From positions 248,001 through 312,000 of the forward strand of contig CANLUS010000005.1 in assembly GCA_947494325.1 (NCBI GenBank): a DNA stretch of 64,000 nucleotides, given 5' to 3'. This DNA is from an uncultured Flavobacteriaceae bacterium. Lineage in GTDB: Bacteria; Bacteroidota; Bacteroidia; Flavobacteriales; Flavobacteriaceae. Both the position numbers and the translations under genes were made by a program. Of this stretch, positions 57,282 to 64,000 are shown piece by piece; within the stretch, counting starts at the first letter, position 1; each line of letters begins with the position of its first letter. The notes beneath the pieces are model-generated. The model saw nothing but the letters and a program-made list of their open reading frames with translations. It was not told where the DNA came from and did not search any database.

Positions 57282-58319
57282 TTAAGGCTGAAAGGTAGCT
57301 ATTTTAGCATTCATATATTTAAACCATAATGGTGGAATCAAACAAAATAACATCATACCTGGATATCCAGTCGGCATCTGCGGACTTTCTGGTAAGGATT
57401 TAAGAACCTGATAATGCTTGCTTCCATTATAATGATGGTCAGAATGTCTGGATAAATTGAATAATACCAATCTGCCAATAATATGATCTGAGTTCCATGA
57501 GTGAATATGTCTCACACGCTCATATCGACCATGCTCATTTTTAGCACGTAACAATCCGTAGTGCTCAATATAATTAACAGTCTGTAATAATAAAATTCCA
57601 ATAACTGCCGCGGCAATAAAACTTAATAACACAGATAATCCAAAAAAATAAAAAATCACAACTAAAATTATAATATTGGCGATGGTATATTTTACCATTT
57701 TATGATGCAGCGAACATAAATTTTTACCAATTTCTCTCATGCGTTTATTCTCTAACTGCCAAGCTTCTTTGTAGCTAGAAAAGTGAGATCGAAACCAAAA
57801 AATATATAGTGCTTCATTTTTTCGAGCCGTCGCCGCATCGTTTGGGGTTGCAACATTAAAATGATGCCCCCCATTATGATAAGGTAAAAAATGAGTGTTT
57901 AGAGAAGTAAGGAGCATCAATTCACCTAACAATTGATCCATTGTATTTAGTCGATGTCCTAATTCATGACCAAGATTGATTCCTAAAACTCCGCACATAA
58001 TTCCCATTGATGATATTCTACCAATTTGTTCGGTTAGGGTCAATGGTTCTTGCATGGCATAAAAAAAGAAAATGAGCATCCCGATTTGAACAGGAACAGC
58101 AGCATATAATATCCAACTATACAACTTGTTTTCTTTTTCAAATTTCGCAGTTTCCTTATCGAAATTACTGGCATCTGGTTTGAAAAATAGTTCCAATAAA
58201 GGAACCAATCCGAAAAACAACAATAGCGGAAAAAAAGTAAAAATTCCTTTAGAAGTCAAGGAAATATAGGTTACTAAGGGTAAAGAATATACCAATAAAT
58301 ATTTAATTCTTTTAAGCAT
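57282..58319 (-). CDS. alkB: AlkB-type membrane diiron alkane hydroxylase
   Basis: This 345-residue integral membrane non-heme diiron monooxygenase has several transmembrane helices and the full histidine set: HELGH (118-122), HFLPYHNGGHH (143-153), NYIEHYGLLR (249-258, the AlkB-specific motif) and RHSDHH (291-296). The NYxEHYGL motif separates it from fatty-acid desaturases. It is somewhat shorter than Pseudomonas AlkB (about 400). No rubredoxin gene is adjacent; the co-transcribed nitroreductase-like flavoprotein might serve in electron supply. The substrate (alkane, fatty acid or other lipid chain) is not decided by sequence. Confidence 0.9.
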   Translation of the reverse strand: MLKRIKYLLVYSLPLVTYISLTSKGIFTFFPLLLFFGLVPLLELFFKPDASNFDKETAKFEKENKLYSWILYAAVPVQIGMLIFFFYAMQEPLTLTEQIGRISSMGIMCGVLGINLGHELGHRLNTMDQLLGELMLLTSLNTHFLPYHNGGHHFNVATPNDAATARKNEALYIFWFRSHFSSYKEAWQLENKRMREIGKNLCSLHHKMVKYTIANIIILVVIFYFFGLSVLLSFIAAAVIGILLLQTVNYIEHYGLLRAKNEHGRYERVRHIHSWNSDHIIGRLVLFNLSRHSDHHYNGSKHYQVLKSLPESPQMPTGYPGMMLFCLIPPLWFKYMNAKIATFQP

Positions 58320-58361: not shown

Positions 58362-58369
58362 TATTTTTG
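58362..58369 (+). promoter_or_regulatory. Candidate -7 promoter box for the ilv leader transcript
   Basis: TATTTTTG matches TAnnTTTG, 36 bp before the first leader-peptide ATG; transcription would start near 58376. An alternative reading uses TTTG 58366-58369 as the -33 box with AATATTTG (58390-58397) 20 bp later as an imperfect -7 box, which would leave almost no 5' leader before the peptide. Confidence 0.45.
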
Positions 58370-58405
58370 AGTTTTAAAAAATATTTACCAATATTTGTAA
58401 GGTAA

Positions 58406-58462
58406 ATGAGAAACAATTTTTTAAATATCGTTGTCATTATTATTGTGATTTTTTCACAATAA
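58406..58462 (+). CDS. ilv leader peptide 1 (Ile/Val-rich, 18 residues)
   Basis: The frame encodes MRNNFLNIVVIIIVIFSQ. Eight consecutive residues (8-15) are Ile or Val, and nine of 18 are branched-chain. A strong intrinsic terminator begins 33 nt after its stop. The segment AGGAGG at 58462-58467 overlaps the stop codon and can pair with CTTCCT (58501-58506), part of the terminator's 5' arm. A ribosome stalled on the Ile/Val run would leave AGGAGG free, favouring the antiterminator; a ribosome at the stop codon would cover it, favouring termination. The peptide and pairing are read directly from sequence; the role is inferred from classical ilv attenuators. Confidence 0.8.
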   Translation: MRNNFLNIVVIIIVIFSQ

Positions 58463-58495
58463 GGAGGACGGTATCTAATAATTAGCATATAATTG

Positions 58496-58528
58496 AAAGC
58501 CTTCCTAAATATTTAGGAAGGCTTTTTT
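58496..58528 (+). terminator. Attenuator terminator 1 of the ilv leader
   Basis: A perfect 30-bp dyad, AAAGCCTTCCTAAAT followed at once by its reverse complement, then three more T (T-run 58523-58528). It stands 33 nt after leader peptide 1 and more than 300 bp before ilvD, with no other plus-strand gene upstream for it to terminate. Confidence 0.88.
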
Positions 58529-58541
58529 AATTAGACTAAAC

Positions 58542-58601
58542 ATGAAAAATAACGGAGTCATTTTGAGCATTCTTATTATTGTCATTTCTAGAAAGATTTG
58601 A
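58542..58601 (+). CDS. ilv leader peptide 2 (Ile/Val/Leu-rich, 19 residues)
   Basis: The frame encodes MKNNGVILSILIIVISRKI, with six Ile, two Val and two Leu. It begins like leader 1 (M-R/K-N-N), suggesting duplication. A second terminator begins 25 nt after its stop. Between them, GGTTTG (58607-58612) can pair with TAAAGCC (58626-58632, one bulged G), extended by TTTT/AAAA (58613-58616/58620-58623) with loop GAT. This antiterminator consumes the AAAGCC arm of the terminator. A ribosome resting on the stop codon would block GGTTTG. The geometry matches classical attenuation control. Confidence 0.8.
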   Translation: MKNNGVILSILIIVISRKI

Positions 58602-58626
58602 TGTGGGGTTTGTTTTGATAAAATCT

Positions 58627-58660
58627 AAAGCCTGTATCATATACGATTCAGGCTTTTTTT
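58627..58660 (+). terminator. Attenuator terminator 2 of the ilv leader
   Basis: AAAGCCTG / CAGGCTTT around a 14-nt loop, with a T-run of seven (58654-58660). Its 5' arm is shared with a competing antiterminator starting right after leader peptide 2. Confidence 0.85.
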
Positions 58661-58830
58661 ATGAGCTAAAATAGAATGCATGAGTATAGTAATAATTAAA
58701 ATTTTAAAATTATGATAATCAGAATATTAAGTTAAAATAGTAGTCTGTGAATTTAACCTTAAAATAAGAAGGTGAATTCTCAAAGAATCACAAAAAATTA
58801 AATTCGAATAATAATTGAGAAAATTAGTTA
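58661..58830 (+). other. Untranslated region between attenuator 2 and ilvD
   Basis: About 170 bp of AT-rich sequence remain after the second terminator. An imperfect stem (GAATT..ACCTT / AAGGT.AATTC, 58749-58779) lacks a T-run, and a seven-codon frame MIIRILS (58712-58735) has no terminator after it. I see no promoter of TAnnTTTG type here, which fits read-through from the leader as the source of ilv transcripts. Confidence 0.4.
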
Positions 58831-60507
58831 ATGAAGTTAAATAAATATAGCAAAACAGTCACTCAAGATCCAACGCAACCAGCCGCGCAAGCGATGTTGC
58901 ACGGTATAGGGTTGACTACCGAAGATTTTAACAAGCCAATGATCGGAATTGCGAGTACTGGTTATGAGGGGAACCCTTGTAATATGCATTTAAATGATTT
59001 GGCCAAACTAGTAAAAGAAGGAACTCATAATGAAGATATTATTGGCCTGATTTTTAATACCATCGGAGTGAGTGATGGCATTTCAATGGGAACTCCAGGA
59101 ATGAGATATTCGTTACCATCACGAGATATTATTGCAGATTCTATGGAAACTGTGGTGCAAGCGATGAGTTATGATGGATTGGTGACGGTAGTGGGTTGTG
59201 ATAAAAATATGCCTGGTGCTTTAATGGCGATGATTCGATTAGATAGACCTTCAATTTTAGTGTATGGTGGTACCATTGATTCTGGTTGTCATAATGGAAA
59301 AAAACTAGATGTTGTATCTGCATTTGAGGCTTGGGGAAGTAAAGTTGCCGGAACGATGGGTGAAGAAGAATATCAAAACATTGTTCAAAAAGCAATTCCA
59401 GGTGCAGGTGCATGCGGAGGGATGTATACTGCGAATACGATGGCATCGGCAATTGAGGCTTTAGGAATGGCTTTACCGTATAATTCTTCAAATCCTGCCA
59501 CAGGTAAAGAGAAAGAACAAGAAGCTATTAGAGCAGGAGAAGCCATGCGTAATTTATTGGAAAGAGATATTAAGCCTTCTGATATTATAACACGAAAATC
59601 TTTAGAGAATGCTATTCGTTTGGTAACCATTTTAGGAGGTTCGACGAATGCCGTATTACATTTCTTGGCAATTGCCCGGGCCGCACAAATTGAATTTACA
59701 TTAGCCGATTTTCAAAAAATAAGTGATAACACGCCGTTTTTAGCAGACTTAAAACCGAGCGGGAAGTATTTAATGGAAGATGTGCATGCAGTTGGCGGAA
59801 TTCCGGCTGTAATGAAATATCTATTAAAGAAAGGACTATTACATGGGGATTGTTTAACTGTTACTGGTAAAAGTTTAGCCGAAAATTTACTAGACGCTAA
59901 TGATCTAACCGAAGGTCAAGATGTAATTAAATCTATTGAAAACCCGATTAAAATTTCTGGACATCTTAGAATGCTTTATGGAAACTTAGCTGAAGAAGGA
60001 AGTGTTGCAAAAATTACGGGTAAAGAAGGTTTAAAATTCTCTGGAAGAGCAAAAGTATTCGATAGTGAGTATGAAGCTAATGACGGGATAAGAGATGGTA
60101 AAGTTGAAAAAGGAGATGTAGTTGTAATTCGTTATGAAGGGCCAAAAGGTGGTCCTGGAATGCCTGAAATGTTAAAACCAACAGCCGCAATTATGGGTGC
60201 TGGTCTAGGAAAAGACGTCGCGCTAATAACTGATGGGAGATTCTCAGGAGGTACGCATGGTTTTGTTGTGGGTCATATCACACCTGAAGCACAAGAAGGT
60301 GGTGCTATTGCACTCGTGAAAGATGGAGATATCATTACGATTGATGCAGAAACAAATGCTATCGTAGTAGAGATTAGTGATGAAGAGTTATCACTTCGTA
60401 AAGAACAATGGAAAGCACCAAATTTAAAATTTAAAAGAGGTGTGTTATATAAATATGCAAGAACGGTTTCATCAGCATCCCAAGGATGTGTTACAGATGA
60501 ATTTTAG
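58831..60507 (+). CDS. ilvD: Dihydroxy-acid dehydratase
   Basis: This 558-residue iron-sulfur dehydratase performs the third common step of Ile and Val synthesis. Cluster cysteines are at C50 ([11 protein letters not shown]), C123 ([15 protein letters not shown]) and C195 ([14 protein letters not shown]). The C-terminal [21 protein letters not shown] is the active-site signature. The three-cysteine pattern fits the 2Fe-2S type. First structural gene after the tandem attenuator; 38 bp separate it from ilvB, and the gene order ilvD-ilvB-ilvN-ilvC continues without a terminator. Confidence 0.98.
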
Positions 60508-60545: not shown

Positions 60546-62279
60546 ATGGAGACACAAACAGCAGTAGCTTCAAAAGCAACAACGAATAAAGCGGTACATA
60601 TTTCTGGTGCCGAAGCGGTTATAAAATGCTTGTTAGAAGAAGGTGTAGATTTAATCTATGGGTATCCTGGCGGAGCAATTATGCCAATTTATGATGAATT
60701 GTATAAATACCAAGATAAATTACAGCATGTACTAACACGCCATGAACAAGGAGCAACGCATTCTGCGCAAGGGTTTGCCAGAGTAACAGGAAAGGTTGGT
60801 GTGGCTATGGCTACTTCTGGCCCAGGAGCAACGAATTTAATTACGGGTATCGCTGATGCACAGATAGATTCGACACCTATGGTTTGTATTACTGGACAGG
60901 TCTGGAAACACTTATTAGGATCCGATGCATTTCAAGAAACCGATATTGTTGGTATTTCTACTCCTGTTACAAAATGGAATTATCAAATAACAGATGCCTC
61001 AGAAATACCTGAAGTGATGGCGAAAGCTTTTTACATTGCACGCTCTGGTCGGCCAGGTCCGGTACTCATTGATATTACTAAAAATGCTCAGGTAGAAACC
61101 TTCGATTTTGAATATAAAAAGTGCACATCAGTGCGCAGTTATAAGGCGAAACCTACGGTTGATGTAAATCAATTGAAGGCGGCTGCCAAATTGATTAATG
61201 CGGCTAAAAAACCAATGATTGTTTTTGGTCAGGGTGTAATTTTGGGTGAAGCTGAAGCTGAATTTAAGGCTCTAATTGAAAAAGCTGGTATTCCATCTGC
61301 GTGGACAATTTTAGGCTTATCTGCATTACCAACGGAGCATCCACTAAATGTGGGTATGGTAGGAATGCATGGAAATTATGGGCCAAATAAATTGACAAAC
61401 GAATGTGATGTACTTATCGCGATCGGAATGCGTTTCGATGATCGAGTGACGGGTAATTTAGACTCATATGCCAAACAAGCTAAAGTAATTCACTTCGAAA
61501 TAGATCCAGCCGAAGTCGATAAAAATGTAAAGACAGATGTGGCTGTGTTAGGTGATGTTAAAGATACCTTGGCGGATATACTTCCAATGATTGATGCAAA
61601 TTCACATACTGATTGGCATCAAGAATTCAAAGATTATGATAAAATTGAATTTGATAAAGTTATTAAAGGTGATTTATATCCGTCAAAAGATGGATTGACC
61701 ATGGGAGAAGTATTGAAAGAAATTAACAATGCCTCTAAAGGTGATGCTGTAATTGTTTCTGATGTTGGTCAGCATCAAATGATAGCTTGTCGATATGCAA
61801 AATTCAATCAATCAAAAAGTAATGTGACTTCTGGCGGTCTTGGTACTATGGGCTTTGCCTTACCAGCTGCTATTGGTGCAAAAATGGGTGTTCCGCAACG
61901 AGAAGTAGTGGCCATTATTGGAGACGGAGGTTATCAGATGACTATTCAGGAATTAGGTACCATATTTCAAACAAAAGTACCCGTTAAAATTGTGGTGCTA
62001 AACAACGAATTTTTAGGAATGGTGCGACAGTGGCAACAGTTGTTTTTTGATAAAAGATATGCATCAACTGAACTGATAAACCCTGATTTTATAACTATTG
62101 CCAAGGGGTATCATATTGAGGCAAAGAAAGTAACAAAAAGAGAGGATTTAGCAGCAGCAGTTGAAGAAATGATGGCTTCAAAAGATGCCTACTTCTTAGA
62201 AGTAGCTGTAGAAAAAGAAGACAACGTATTTCCGATGATTCCTTCTGGAGCATCGGTATCTGATGTAAGATTAAGTTAA
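60546..62279 (+). CDS. ilvB: Acetolactate synthase, large (catalytic) subunit
   Basis: This 577-residue TPP- and FAD-dependent enzyme condenses pyruvate with pyruvate or 2-oxobutyrate, the committed step to Val/Leu and Ile. Key elements are YGYPGGAIMPIYDEL, the catalytic Glu in TRHEQGATHSAQGFARVTG (E67), the central domain VFGQGVILGEAEAEF with GMHGNYGPNKLTNECDVLIAIGMRFDDRVTG (FAD region), and the TPP-binding GDGGYQMTIQELGTI (GDG from 459) with a downstream NNEFLGMVRQWQ. Length is standard. It ends 4 bp before ilvN, its regulatory subunit. Confidence 0.98.
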   Translation: METQTAVASKATTNKAVHISGAEAVIKCLLEEGVDLIYGYPGGAIMPIYDELYKYQDKLQHVLTRHEQGATHSAQGFARVTGKVGVAMATSGPGATNLITGIADAQIDSTPMVCITGQVWKHLLGSDAFQETDIVGISTPVTKWNYQITDASEIPEVMAKAFYIARSGRPGPVLIDITKNAQVETFDFEYKKCTSVRSYKAKPTVDVNQLKAAAKLINAAKKPMIVFGQGVILGEAEAEFKALIEKAGIPSAWTILGLSALPTEHPLNVGMVGMHGNYGPNKLTNECDVLIAIGMRFDDRVTGNLDSYAKQAKVIHFEIDPAEVDKNVKTDVAVLGDVKDTLADILPMIDANSHTDWHQEFKDYDKIEFDKVIKGDLYPSKDGLTMGEVLKEINNASKGDAVIVSDVGQHQMIACRYAKFNQSKSNVTSGGLGTMGFALPAAIGAKMGVPQREVVAIIGDGGYQMTIQELGTIFQTKVPVKIVVLNNEFLGMVRQWQQLFFDKRYASTELINPDFITIAKGYHIEAKKVTKREDLAAAVEEMMASKDAYFLEVAVEKEDNVFPMIPSGASVSDVRLS

Positions 62280-62283
62280 GGAT

Positions 62284-62805
62284 ATGGAAAACGAAAGAAC
62301 ATATACGATTTCAGTATATACAGAAAATAATATAGGATTATTAAATAGGCTATCGGCAATTTTTCTTAAACGTCATATTAATATAGAAAGTATGACGGTG
62401 AGTAAATCAGAAATTGACGACGTACATCGATTTACGTTCGTGGTAAATATTTCGGAGGCACAAGCGCGAAAAATTATAGGTCAAATTGAAAAGCAAATAG
62501 AAGTTATTAGAGCGTTTTATCATACTGATGATGAGGTGATTTATCAAGAATCAGCTTTGTTTAAAATTTCGACTGAGCATTTATATGACGAAGAAATTCA
62601 AGATAAATTAAAATTCCGACGTGCCAATATTATTACGATTACGGAGCATTATTTTGTGATCGAATCTTCTGGGTCAAAAAGCGAAATCGATAAATTATAT
62701 GACCGCTTAAAGCCATACGGTCTGATGCAATTTGTACGCTCAGGTCGCATTGCTATTACGCGCCCTAAAATGGCCATTTCAGAATTATTACAAGAGTTCA
62801 ACTAA
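62284..62805 (+). CDS. ilvN: Acetolactate synthase, small (regulatory) subunit
   Basis: This 173-residue subunit activates IlvB and confers valine feedback inhibition. The N-terminal ACT domain is clear ([39 protein letters not shown]), followed by the second regulatory domain ([53 protein letters not shown]), the usual end of IlvN/IlvH proteins. Size is typical for the family. It starts 4 bp after ilvB and sits 23 bp before ilvC. Confidence 0.97.
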
Positions 62806-62828: not shown

Positions 62829-64000
62829 ATGACAAATTACTTTAATACCCTTTCATTAAGAGATAAATTAACTGAATTAGGTAAATGTAGATTTATGGAA
62901 TCTTCAGAGTTTGAAGATGGAGTGAATGCTTTAAAAAATAAAAAAATTGTTATTGTAGGCTGTGGGGCTCAAGGTTTGAACCAAGGTTTGAATATGAGAG
63001 ATTCTGGTCTGGATATCTCTTATGCGCTGCGAGCACAAGCGATATCTGAGAAACGCGCATCTTTTCAAAATGCCACGGAAAATAATTTTACAGTAGGTAC
63101 GTATGAAGATTTGATTCCAACTGCTGATGTTGTATTGAATTTAACTCCAGATAAACAGCATACTAATGTGGTAACCGCAGTAATGCCTTTAATGAAGCAA
63201 GGAGCGACGTTGTCATATTCTCATGGCTTTAATATCGTTGAGGAAGGCATGCAAGTTCGCAAGGATTTAACCGTTATTATGGTTGCACCAAAATGTCCGG
63301 GGTCTGAAGTAAGGGAAGAATACAAAAGAGGATTTGGTGTACCAACACTTATTGCGGTACATCCAGAGAATGACCCAGAAAATAAAGGATGGGCACAGGC
63401 AAAAGCATATGCAGTTGCTACAGGTGGACATAGAGCAGGGGTTTTGGCTTCTTCATTTATCGCCGAAGTTAAGTCTGATCTAATGGGTGAACAAACTATT
63501 TTATGTGGAGTTCTTCAAACTGGAGCTATTTTATCATTTGACAAAATGGTGGAAAAAGGCATCGAACCTGGATATGCCGCGAAATTGATCCAGTATGGTT
63601 GGGAGACAATTACTGAAGCTTTAAAGCATGGAGGAATCACCAATATGATGGATCGTTTGTCGAATCCTGCTAAGGTAAAAACATTCGAAATTTCAGAAGA
63701 GTTGAAAGATATTATGCGTCCGCTATTTCAAAAGCATATGGATGATATTATGTCTGGTCACTTTTCAAAAACGATGATGGAAGATTGGGCGAATGACGAT
63801 CAAAATTTATTGTCTTGGAGAGCGGCCACCGGTGAAACGGCTTTCGAAAAAACACAGATAACTTCAGCAGAAATCAGTGAGCAAGAATACTTTGATCACG
63901 GAGTTTTGTTGGTTGCTTTTGTTCGAGCTGGTGTTGAATTGGCTTTCGAGACGATGACGGAATCTGGAATTATAGAAGAGTCAGCATATTATGAGTCTTT
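62829..64000 (+). CDS. ilvC: Ketol-acid reductoisomerase, class II (3' end outside window)
   Basis: About 390 codons are present, running off the right edge without a stop. The NADPH-binding region [31 protein letters not shown] is near residue 40, then [33 protein letters not shown] and [60 protein letters not shown] carries metal-binding acids. The sequence is of the long E. coli-type (class II, about 490 residues) with a duplicated knotted domain, not the 330-residue class I. It isomerises and reduces acetolactate, the second step of Ile/Val synthesis, and extends the ilv operon. Confidence 0.97.

Follow-up and report, generated by a model that had tools for sequence, protein, structure and literature searches.

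The attenuator of the Escherichia coli trp operon consists of a leader peptide rich in the cognate amino acid, a 1:2 hairpin, a 2:3 antiterminator and a 3:4 terminator. The E. coli mechanism is summarised in PMC3641672, which also presents the Salmonella mgtCBR leader, where two short ORFs (mgtM and mgtP) coupled to transcription were named tandem attenuators; in that account the two respond to different signals (ATP and proline), act additively and rely on stem-loops unlike intrinsic terminators. Leaders with two terminators in tandem are also on record for rimP (PMC2965389) and, in the form of tandem riboswitches, for metE of B. clausii (cited in PMC3641672), neither of which is described in those passages as an amino-acid leader peptide. 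Leader-peptide attenuation before amino-acid operons has been noted in Flavobacterium psychrophilum (PMC9723704), in a section that mentions no ilv leader and no tandem arrangement; for B. thetaiotaomicron, short ORFs resembling leader peptides have been described (PMC7366714). A search of the open-access literature, mostly at the level of titles and abstracts, returned no report of same-signal leader-peptide attenuators placed in series before an amino-acid operon; Lopatovskaya et al. 2010 (as cited in PMC4833913) may list Bacteroidetes attenuators.

The DNA analysed here (the window) is a stretch of 64,000 nucleotides of contig CANLUS010000005.1 (positions 248,001 to 312,000, forward strand; assembly GCA_947494325.1) from an uncultured Flavobacteriaceae bacterium whose genome comprises 3.64 Mb in 43 contigs. 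A 511-bp gap in this window separates a minus-strand gene (57282-58319) from ilvD, which starts at 58831 and opens the ilvDBNC operon [Table 1]. A first-pass annotation, made from the sequence alone, had proposed that this gap carries two leader-peptide/terminator units one behind the other. Two complete units are indeed present in series at 58406-58660, with both peptides and both terminators at the places it had given, and they are real and conserved. A detector was set to call short ORFs (14-30 aa, I/L/V content of at least 45%) whose stop codon lies 5-70 nt before a terminator stem of at least 7 pairs plus a U tract; it finds both units in 58362-58830 and not a single one in 2000 dinucleotide shuffles of this sequence. 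Since I/L/V-rich ORFs arose in 152 and qualifying terminators in 3 of the same 2000 shuffles, the peptides alone could be a chance product of AT-rich DNA, but the units could not. Neither terminator was reported by a consensus terminator scanner.

Table 1. Features of the leader and of the ilvDBNC operon, in window coordinates.
Feature	Position	Strand	Evidence
TTTG, candidate -33 box of putative promoter P1	58366..58369	+	20 nt before the -7-like box
AATATTTG, -7-like box of putative promoter P1	58390..58397	+	7/8 match to TAnnTTTG
Leader peptide 1, MRNNFLNIVVIIIVIFSQ, including stop TAA	58406..58462	+	sequence; alignments
Unit 1 anti-antiterminator (1:2), 58425-58432 x 58467-58474	58425..58474	+	fold; compensatory changes in 26 sequences
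Unit 1 inner hairpin, 58440-58448 x 58454-58462	within 58425..58474	+	fold; compensatory changes in 26 sequences
Unit 1 predicted antiterminator strand (2:3), 7 pairs with 58499-58506	58465..58472	+	ribosome-stall folding
Intrinsic terminator 1, stem 58496-58525, U tract up to 58528	58496..58528	+	sequence, fold, detector
Leader peptide 2, MKNNGVILSILIIVISRKI, including stop TGA	58542..58601	+	sequence; unit-2 relatives found with model R2
Unit 2 predicted antiterminator strand, 11-12 pairs with 58626-58638	58600..58612	+	ribosome-stall folding
Intrinsic terminator 2, stem 58627-58656, U tract up to 58660	58627..58660	+	sequence, fold, detector
E3, possible second promoter/operator, TTGaaCATCATA	58680..58808	+	alignment; R3 match 58681-58808, 40.4 bits
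E3 blocks: dyad TAAa..TGAt.a.CA..TTAA, then TGA.TTTA and TAatTT.G	within 58680..58808	+	
TAAATTCG, -7-like box in E3, candidate promoter P2 (start near 58811)	58799..58806	+	conserved TAatTT.G at the end of E3
ilvD, dihydroxy-acid dehydratase	58831..60507	+	NF002068 and TIGR00110 above cut-off (NCBIfam)
ilvB, acetolactate synthase large subunit	60546..62279	+	TIGR00118 above cut-off
ilvN, acetolactate synthase small subunit	62284..62805	+	TIGR00119 above cut-off
ilvC, ketol-acid reductoisomerase, continues past the window end	62829..63998	+	NF003557 above cut-off

Each unit has the peptide/1:2/2:3/3:4 layout of classical attenuators that precede biosynthetic operons (E. coli trp, ilv-type leaders, ilvBNC of C. 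glutamicum): a short ORF rich in codons for the products of the operon (Ile and Val for ilvDBNC), an intrinsic terminator with conserved stems between the leader ORF and the structural genes, and, by prediction, mutually exclusive 1:2, 2:3 and 3:4 pairings that depend on the position of the ribosome. What sets the locus apart from these systems is that two, and in some relatives three, complete units follow each other and that the first leader is apparently near-leaderless. The ilv and mgtCBR leaders both carry two short ORFs, but the ilv units both end in intrinsic terminators and, by codon content, are both devoted to Ile/Val, so that ORFs responding to different signals of the mgtCBR type were not found. 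The first-pass annotation had regarded the arrangement as unusual in Bacteroidota and was aware of no description, which holds for the tandem form, unreported in the literature searched, but not for leader-peptide attenuation as such, already noted in flavobacteria (PMC9723704). Among the Rfam leader families (Thr_leader, Phe_leader and others), none reached its gathering score in the window stretch or in sets of 10 and 9 loci, the best being Thr_leader with 41.9 of 55 bits (L131), and the T-box model had no match in the window stretch or in the ilv loci scanned with Rfam.

The distribution of the units was determined from 80 ilvD loci, each with up to 2 kb of upstream DNA, that were collected by IlvD similarity alone and to which the window was added; the loci closest to the window come mostly from Flavobacteriaceae. 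Covariance models were built for unit 1 (R1, 26 sequences) and unit 2 (R2, 7 sequences, among them the window), whose training sequences match by construction. At E <=1e-7 for R1 and E <=1e-8 for R2, both units are present in 18 of the 81 loci, a 19th tandem locus (L012) having unit 2 and a unit 1 truncated by the contig end, while 26 loci carry unit 1 only and 36 neither unit. Where ilvE precedes ilvD, as in Kordia, Gelidibacter and some Bizionia (ilvE being identified by eye in those loci and by NCBIfam in L131), the tandem pair sits before ilvE. The leader frames are conserved in the ilvD upstream regions of relatives, with gaps inside the aligned frames coming in threes, the feature that the first-pass annotation had proposed to look for. 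The M-(R/K)-N-N start that it had pointed out in both peptides is not conserved, M-x-K-Q opening 20 of 33 first peptides and M-N 18 of 33 second peptides in tandem loci. Of five Kordia loci, three retain both units, 145-232 nt apart. By eye, the extra DNA between the intact units of Kordia loci L071 (584-754), L081 (417-648) and L075 (675-819) contains stretches that resemble inverted repeats, and a unit-1 relative in Winogradskyella eximia (L026, 1690-1822) seems to lack an ATG in its leader frame.

At the looser threshold of E <=0.01, R2 matches 57 and R1 199 of 299 genomes of the family, many of the weak R1 matches being other things, such as terminators before gatA (L150, where the gene is clipped by the end of the stretch and scores below the curated cut-off) or, in L164, a leader that precedes a gene for aspartate kinase. 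At least 26 of these 299 genomes have a series of at least two same-strand units, separated by 0-148 nt. Inspection of 40 regions revealed unit 2 alone in several (e.g. L136, L137, L155 and L160, as called by the finder), only unit 1 in L145-L149, and three consecutive leader/terminator units with Ile-rich peptides upstream of ilvD in L142 (370-770; G261) and L143 (240-650; G093, middle leader identified by eye). Units 2 and 3 are nearly identical within each of the latter two loci, which shows how local duplication can add a gate. A recent copying of unit 1 into unit 2 was rejected; local similarity between the two exceeds that of 50 shuffles in 13 of 33 loci, so that unit 2 may be an old duplicate. 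Single-unit and unit-free loci, together with a congener of the window organism (G119) that has one unit by eye and no match to R1 or R2, indicate that the pair was often lost or not gained. On a quick and weakly supported tree of the 81 IlvD proteins, which does not separate gains from losses, the tandem state requires 8 changes, at least 2 of them on starred branches.

Within the host genome, unit-1-type matches number 36 at E <=5, this leader included, and seven others that were inspected look like ordinary terminators after genes. Beyond the family, in the same order and class, single Ile/Val leaders precede ilvE-ilvD or ilvD (L193, L196, L201), a Thr/Ile leader precedes an aspartate kinase gene (L195) and a His leader precedes hisG (L197). 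Tandem Phe-rich leaders (MQKQLNNYFFFFNAMR and MKRQTSTVFFYFFFIQP), each with a terminator, occur at 475-694 of L194 (G637) before a prephenate-dehydratase-like gene (pheA) that scores below curated cut-offs; since two matching relatives (L206, L207) have one Phe unit each by eye, this tandem is a single case. SAM-II riboswitch matches above threshold were seen on the opposite strand near ilv loci L003, L068, L125, L147 and L149.

Across the 26 unit-1 sequences, pairing in the stems taken together (1:2 stem, 10 pairs; inner hairpin, 6; terminator, 9) amounts to 92.0%, compared to 36.9-51.7% when the partner strand is slid by 1-3 columns, and doubly changed cells number 19 versus 5.9 in column shuffles; the slid control matters because kin sequences can exceed column shuffles without any structure. 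The 2:3 antiterminator of unit 1 is paired in 89.6% of cells of the same alignment (45.1-78.6% when slid) but does not covary above chance, 84 of 500 shuffles reaching the same level; this would not be surprising for a pairing one strand of which must also fit the terminator. The covariation that the first-pass annotation had proposed to look for is found in the unit-1 stems that hide the antiterminator but not in the antiterminator pairing itself. In unit 2 (7 sequences), compensatory changes affect 3 of 16 predicted pairs and some consensus pairs do not form in as many as 3 of the 7 sequences. The fold of unit 1 in the window is much stronger than that of its shuffles (z -6.84); that of unit 2 is weakly better as a whole (z -1.58) and more so in the part past the stop codon (z -2.80).

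The switch itself was modelled by stepping a ribosome through each leader codon by codon and folding the RNA beyond it as far as the terminator 5' arm extends, on the assumption that the leading edge of the ribosome lies 12 nt beyond the A-site codon. In the window, placing the ribosome at codons 3-15 gives unit 1 a predicted antiterminator of 7 pairs, all of which are gone at the last codon and the stop; that of unit 2 has 11 pairs at codons 10-15 and 0 at the stop codon; another choice of arm boundary gives 9 and 12 pairs, respectively, with 2 residual local-hairpin pairs at the unit-1 stop. Placing the ribosome near the end of the Ile/Val run (five positions) yields 5 or more antiterminator pairs in 32 of the 33 first and all 33 second units of the tandem loci, in agreement with the proposal that each unit holds a competing antiterminator; once it has reached the stop codon, as many persist in none of the first and in 6 of the second units. 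Mean maxima reach 7.1 (unit 1) and 10.5 (unit 2) pairs compared to 3.7 and 5.6 with shuffled spacers. Taken singly, 8 of 33 first and 22 of 33 second units stand out from 30 shuffled spacers, no more than one of which does as well, and even without a ribosome the antiterminator is the preferred fold in 10 first and 13 second units of 33; the energetic case for single loci is accordingly weaker than the comparative one.

The codon content of the 33 tandem loci suggests that both gates sense Ile, with Val. First peptides total 208 Ile, 77 Val and 35 Leu among 628 residues, with 22 of the 35 Leu confined to residues 1-7, and second peptides 214 Ile, 64 Val and 12 Leu among 538, i.e., Ile plus Val shares of 45% (285/628) and 52% (278/538). 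The first-pass annotation had read the second unit of the window as tuned to Ile/Val/Leu and the pair as a means of steeper or combinatorial control. We consider it very improbable that the second gate adds leucine sensing and makes the pair a combinatorial Ile/Val/Leu sensor: the window peptide does contain two Leu codons, one of them (codon 11) in the stall zone, but these are 2 of only 12 Leu in all second peptides, 24 of which are Leu-free, including that of the nearest relative (L002; IlvD 96% identical). With the same amino acids read at both gates, the gain to be expected would be tighter or steeper control, a part of the earlier proposal that we retain, and not combinatorial sensing.

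A candidate promoter, P1, lies just ahead of the first leader. In F. psychrophilum, where Shine-Dalgarno sequences are absent and 5.5% of mRNAs are leaderless, the -7 box has the consensus TAnnTTTG and occupies -12 to -5 (PMC9723704). Applied to the -7-like box of the window, this spacing would place the start of transcription near 58402, 4 nt before ATG1. Among tandem loci, 25 of 33 have a box of the form [ACT]AnnTTTG ahead of ATG1, at a distance of 4-16 nt (mostly 8-9), as do 16 of 20 loci with a single unit; none of the 33 tandem loci has one at this distance from ATG2 (shuffle rate, 2.4%). This distribution would fit one promoter and a shared transcript for both gates. An alignment of 25 unit-1 loci further displays a partly conserved TTnGG block near the position of the candidate -33 box.

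We conclude that the ilvDBNC leader probably contains two ribosome-mediated transcription attenuators in series, both sensing charged tRNA-Ile together with tRNA-Val. Transcription would begin a few nucleotides before leader ORF 1. When Ile and Val are plentiful, the ribosome would reach the stop codon and cover the antiterminator strand, terminator 1 would form and the transcript would end near 58528. When they are scarce, the ribosome would stall in the Ile/Val run and open the 1:2 hairpin, and the freed strand would pair with the 5' arm of the terminator, letting the polymerase pass gate 1. The polymerase would then meet the second unit, which is expected to follow the same logic in a different sequence and to need a second ribosome, starting from the internal ATG. 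As P1 transcripts would reach the operon only past both gates, the leaks of the two would multiply and induction would be steeper.

Between terminator 2 and ilvD lies a further conserved element of approximately 128 nt, E3, in which the distance from TTGAAC to TGA.TTTA is 67 nt in most copies and 68 nt in the window. A position weight matrix from 57 training copies (mostly the same loci plus some fetched ones, the window copy being excluded) scores above 25 in 65 of the 81 loci, namely 12 of 19 tandem loci (L012 included), 21 of the 26 with a single unit and 32 of the 36 that lack attenuators. The window copy scores 2.1, probably on account of one extra base, against a maximum of -19 over 200 shuffles. 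With a gapped model, R3 (45 training copies, including the window), matches at E <=0.001 were obtained in 151 of 299 family genomes, 144 of which have one copy each; those compared with unit coordinates lie directly behind units and the weakest are partial. Second copies were seen in L058 (approximately 167-300), before what by eye is an aminotransferase-like gene upstream of ilvD, and at G168:C1:1860571-1860698.

A regulon motif was rejected, the strict E3 pattern having no match in the host genome and R3 one match at E <=0.001, at ilv. So was an RNA hairpin: dyad positions 31 and 41 vary independently (64% paired versus 65% in shuffles), no helix emerges among the 25 column pairs with the highest mutual information in 61 sequences, and E3 matches no Rfam family. 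The mini leader frame TTG AAC ATC ATA ... TAA has its TAA at codon 9 in 49 of 57 copies, but a stop falls within codons 5-8 in 15 of 57, about the rate estimated for AT-rich chance, and a third mini leader was likewise dismissed. With its near-constant spacing and lack of dyad covariation, E3 reads as a DNA element rather than an RNA, possibly an activator-dependent second promoter.

Such a promoter downstream of 58660 is made possible by the conserved, promoter-like character of E3 and underlies the rival reading to which we give most weight, although we hold it to be rather unlikely: the attenuators would be real but minor, most ilv mRNA would start at E3 (near 58811) under a DNA-binding regulator, and the two gates would only trim read-through from P1. 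The retention of E3 in nearly all attenuator-less loci (32/36), its mostly single-copy presence in half of the family genomes (144 of 151 among 299), the DNA-like spacing of 67-68 nt without dyad covariation and the 7/8 match of TAAATTCG to TAnnTTTG, which would set the start approximately 20 nt before ilvD if the F. psychrophilum rule (PMC9723704) holds, all speak for it. On the other hand, inspection by eye turned up no -33 box, it would be unusual for a regulator to have a single target in each genome, a minor role poorly explains why both attenuators are kept across many genera, and in L199 (genus g127) the attenuator lies 40 nt before ilvD, with no space for E3 and no R3 match. Were E3 a promoter, the attenuators would govern only part of the transcription of the operon, and it is here that the main uncertainty as to their physiological weight resides.

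Two other explanations appear much less likely than control from E3. It is improbable, if somewhat less so than leucine sensing, that only gate 1 works and that the unit 2 of this genome is a relic in decay; the weaker fold of the second unit of the window (z -1.58), its less Ile-rich peptide and the sufficiency of unit 1 alone in 26 of 81 loci are consistent with decay, but the unit retains its frame, its U tract and an antiterminator of 11-12 pairs that is predicted at codons 10-15 and gone at the stop. That the locus merely combines two ordinary terminators with spurious ORFs of AT-rich DNA is hardly credible, for even if I/L/V-rich ORFs by themselves are readily produced by shuffling (152/2000), conservation, covariation, mutually exclusive pairing and the lack of complete units in all 2000 shuffles argue against it.

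Building on the reading of two serial Ile/Val attenuators, we tentatively suggest, with somewhat less than even confidence, that same-signal gates stacked two to three deep are a standing architecture of Bacteroidota, represented by ilv in Flavobacteriaceae and once by pheA (L194), in which gates would be added by local duplication and freely lost, their number would tune leak and steepness, and the stack would work together with the undescribed, ilv-linked E3 that would start or control transcription downstream. The family offers a textbook mechanism in the form of a series circuit built by nature, in which related species place one, two or three gates before the same operon and unit-free relatives can serve as controls, and makes it testable whether a second same-signal gate buys lower leak, a steeper response or robustness. 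It also provides models for leader peptides outside Rfam coverage in a large environmental phylum, and suggests that attenuation may operate with a near-leaderless first leader in bacteria where Shine-Dalgarno sequences are said to be absent.
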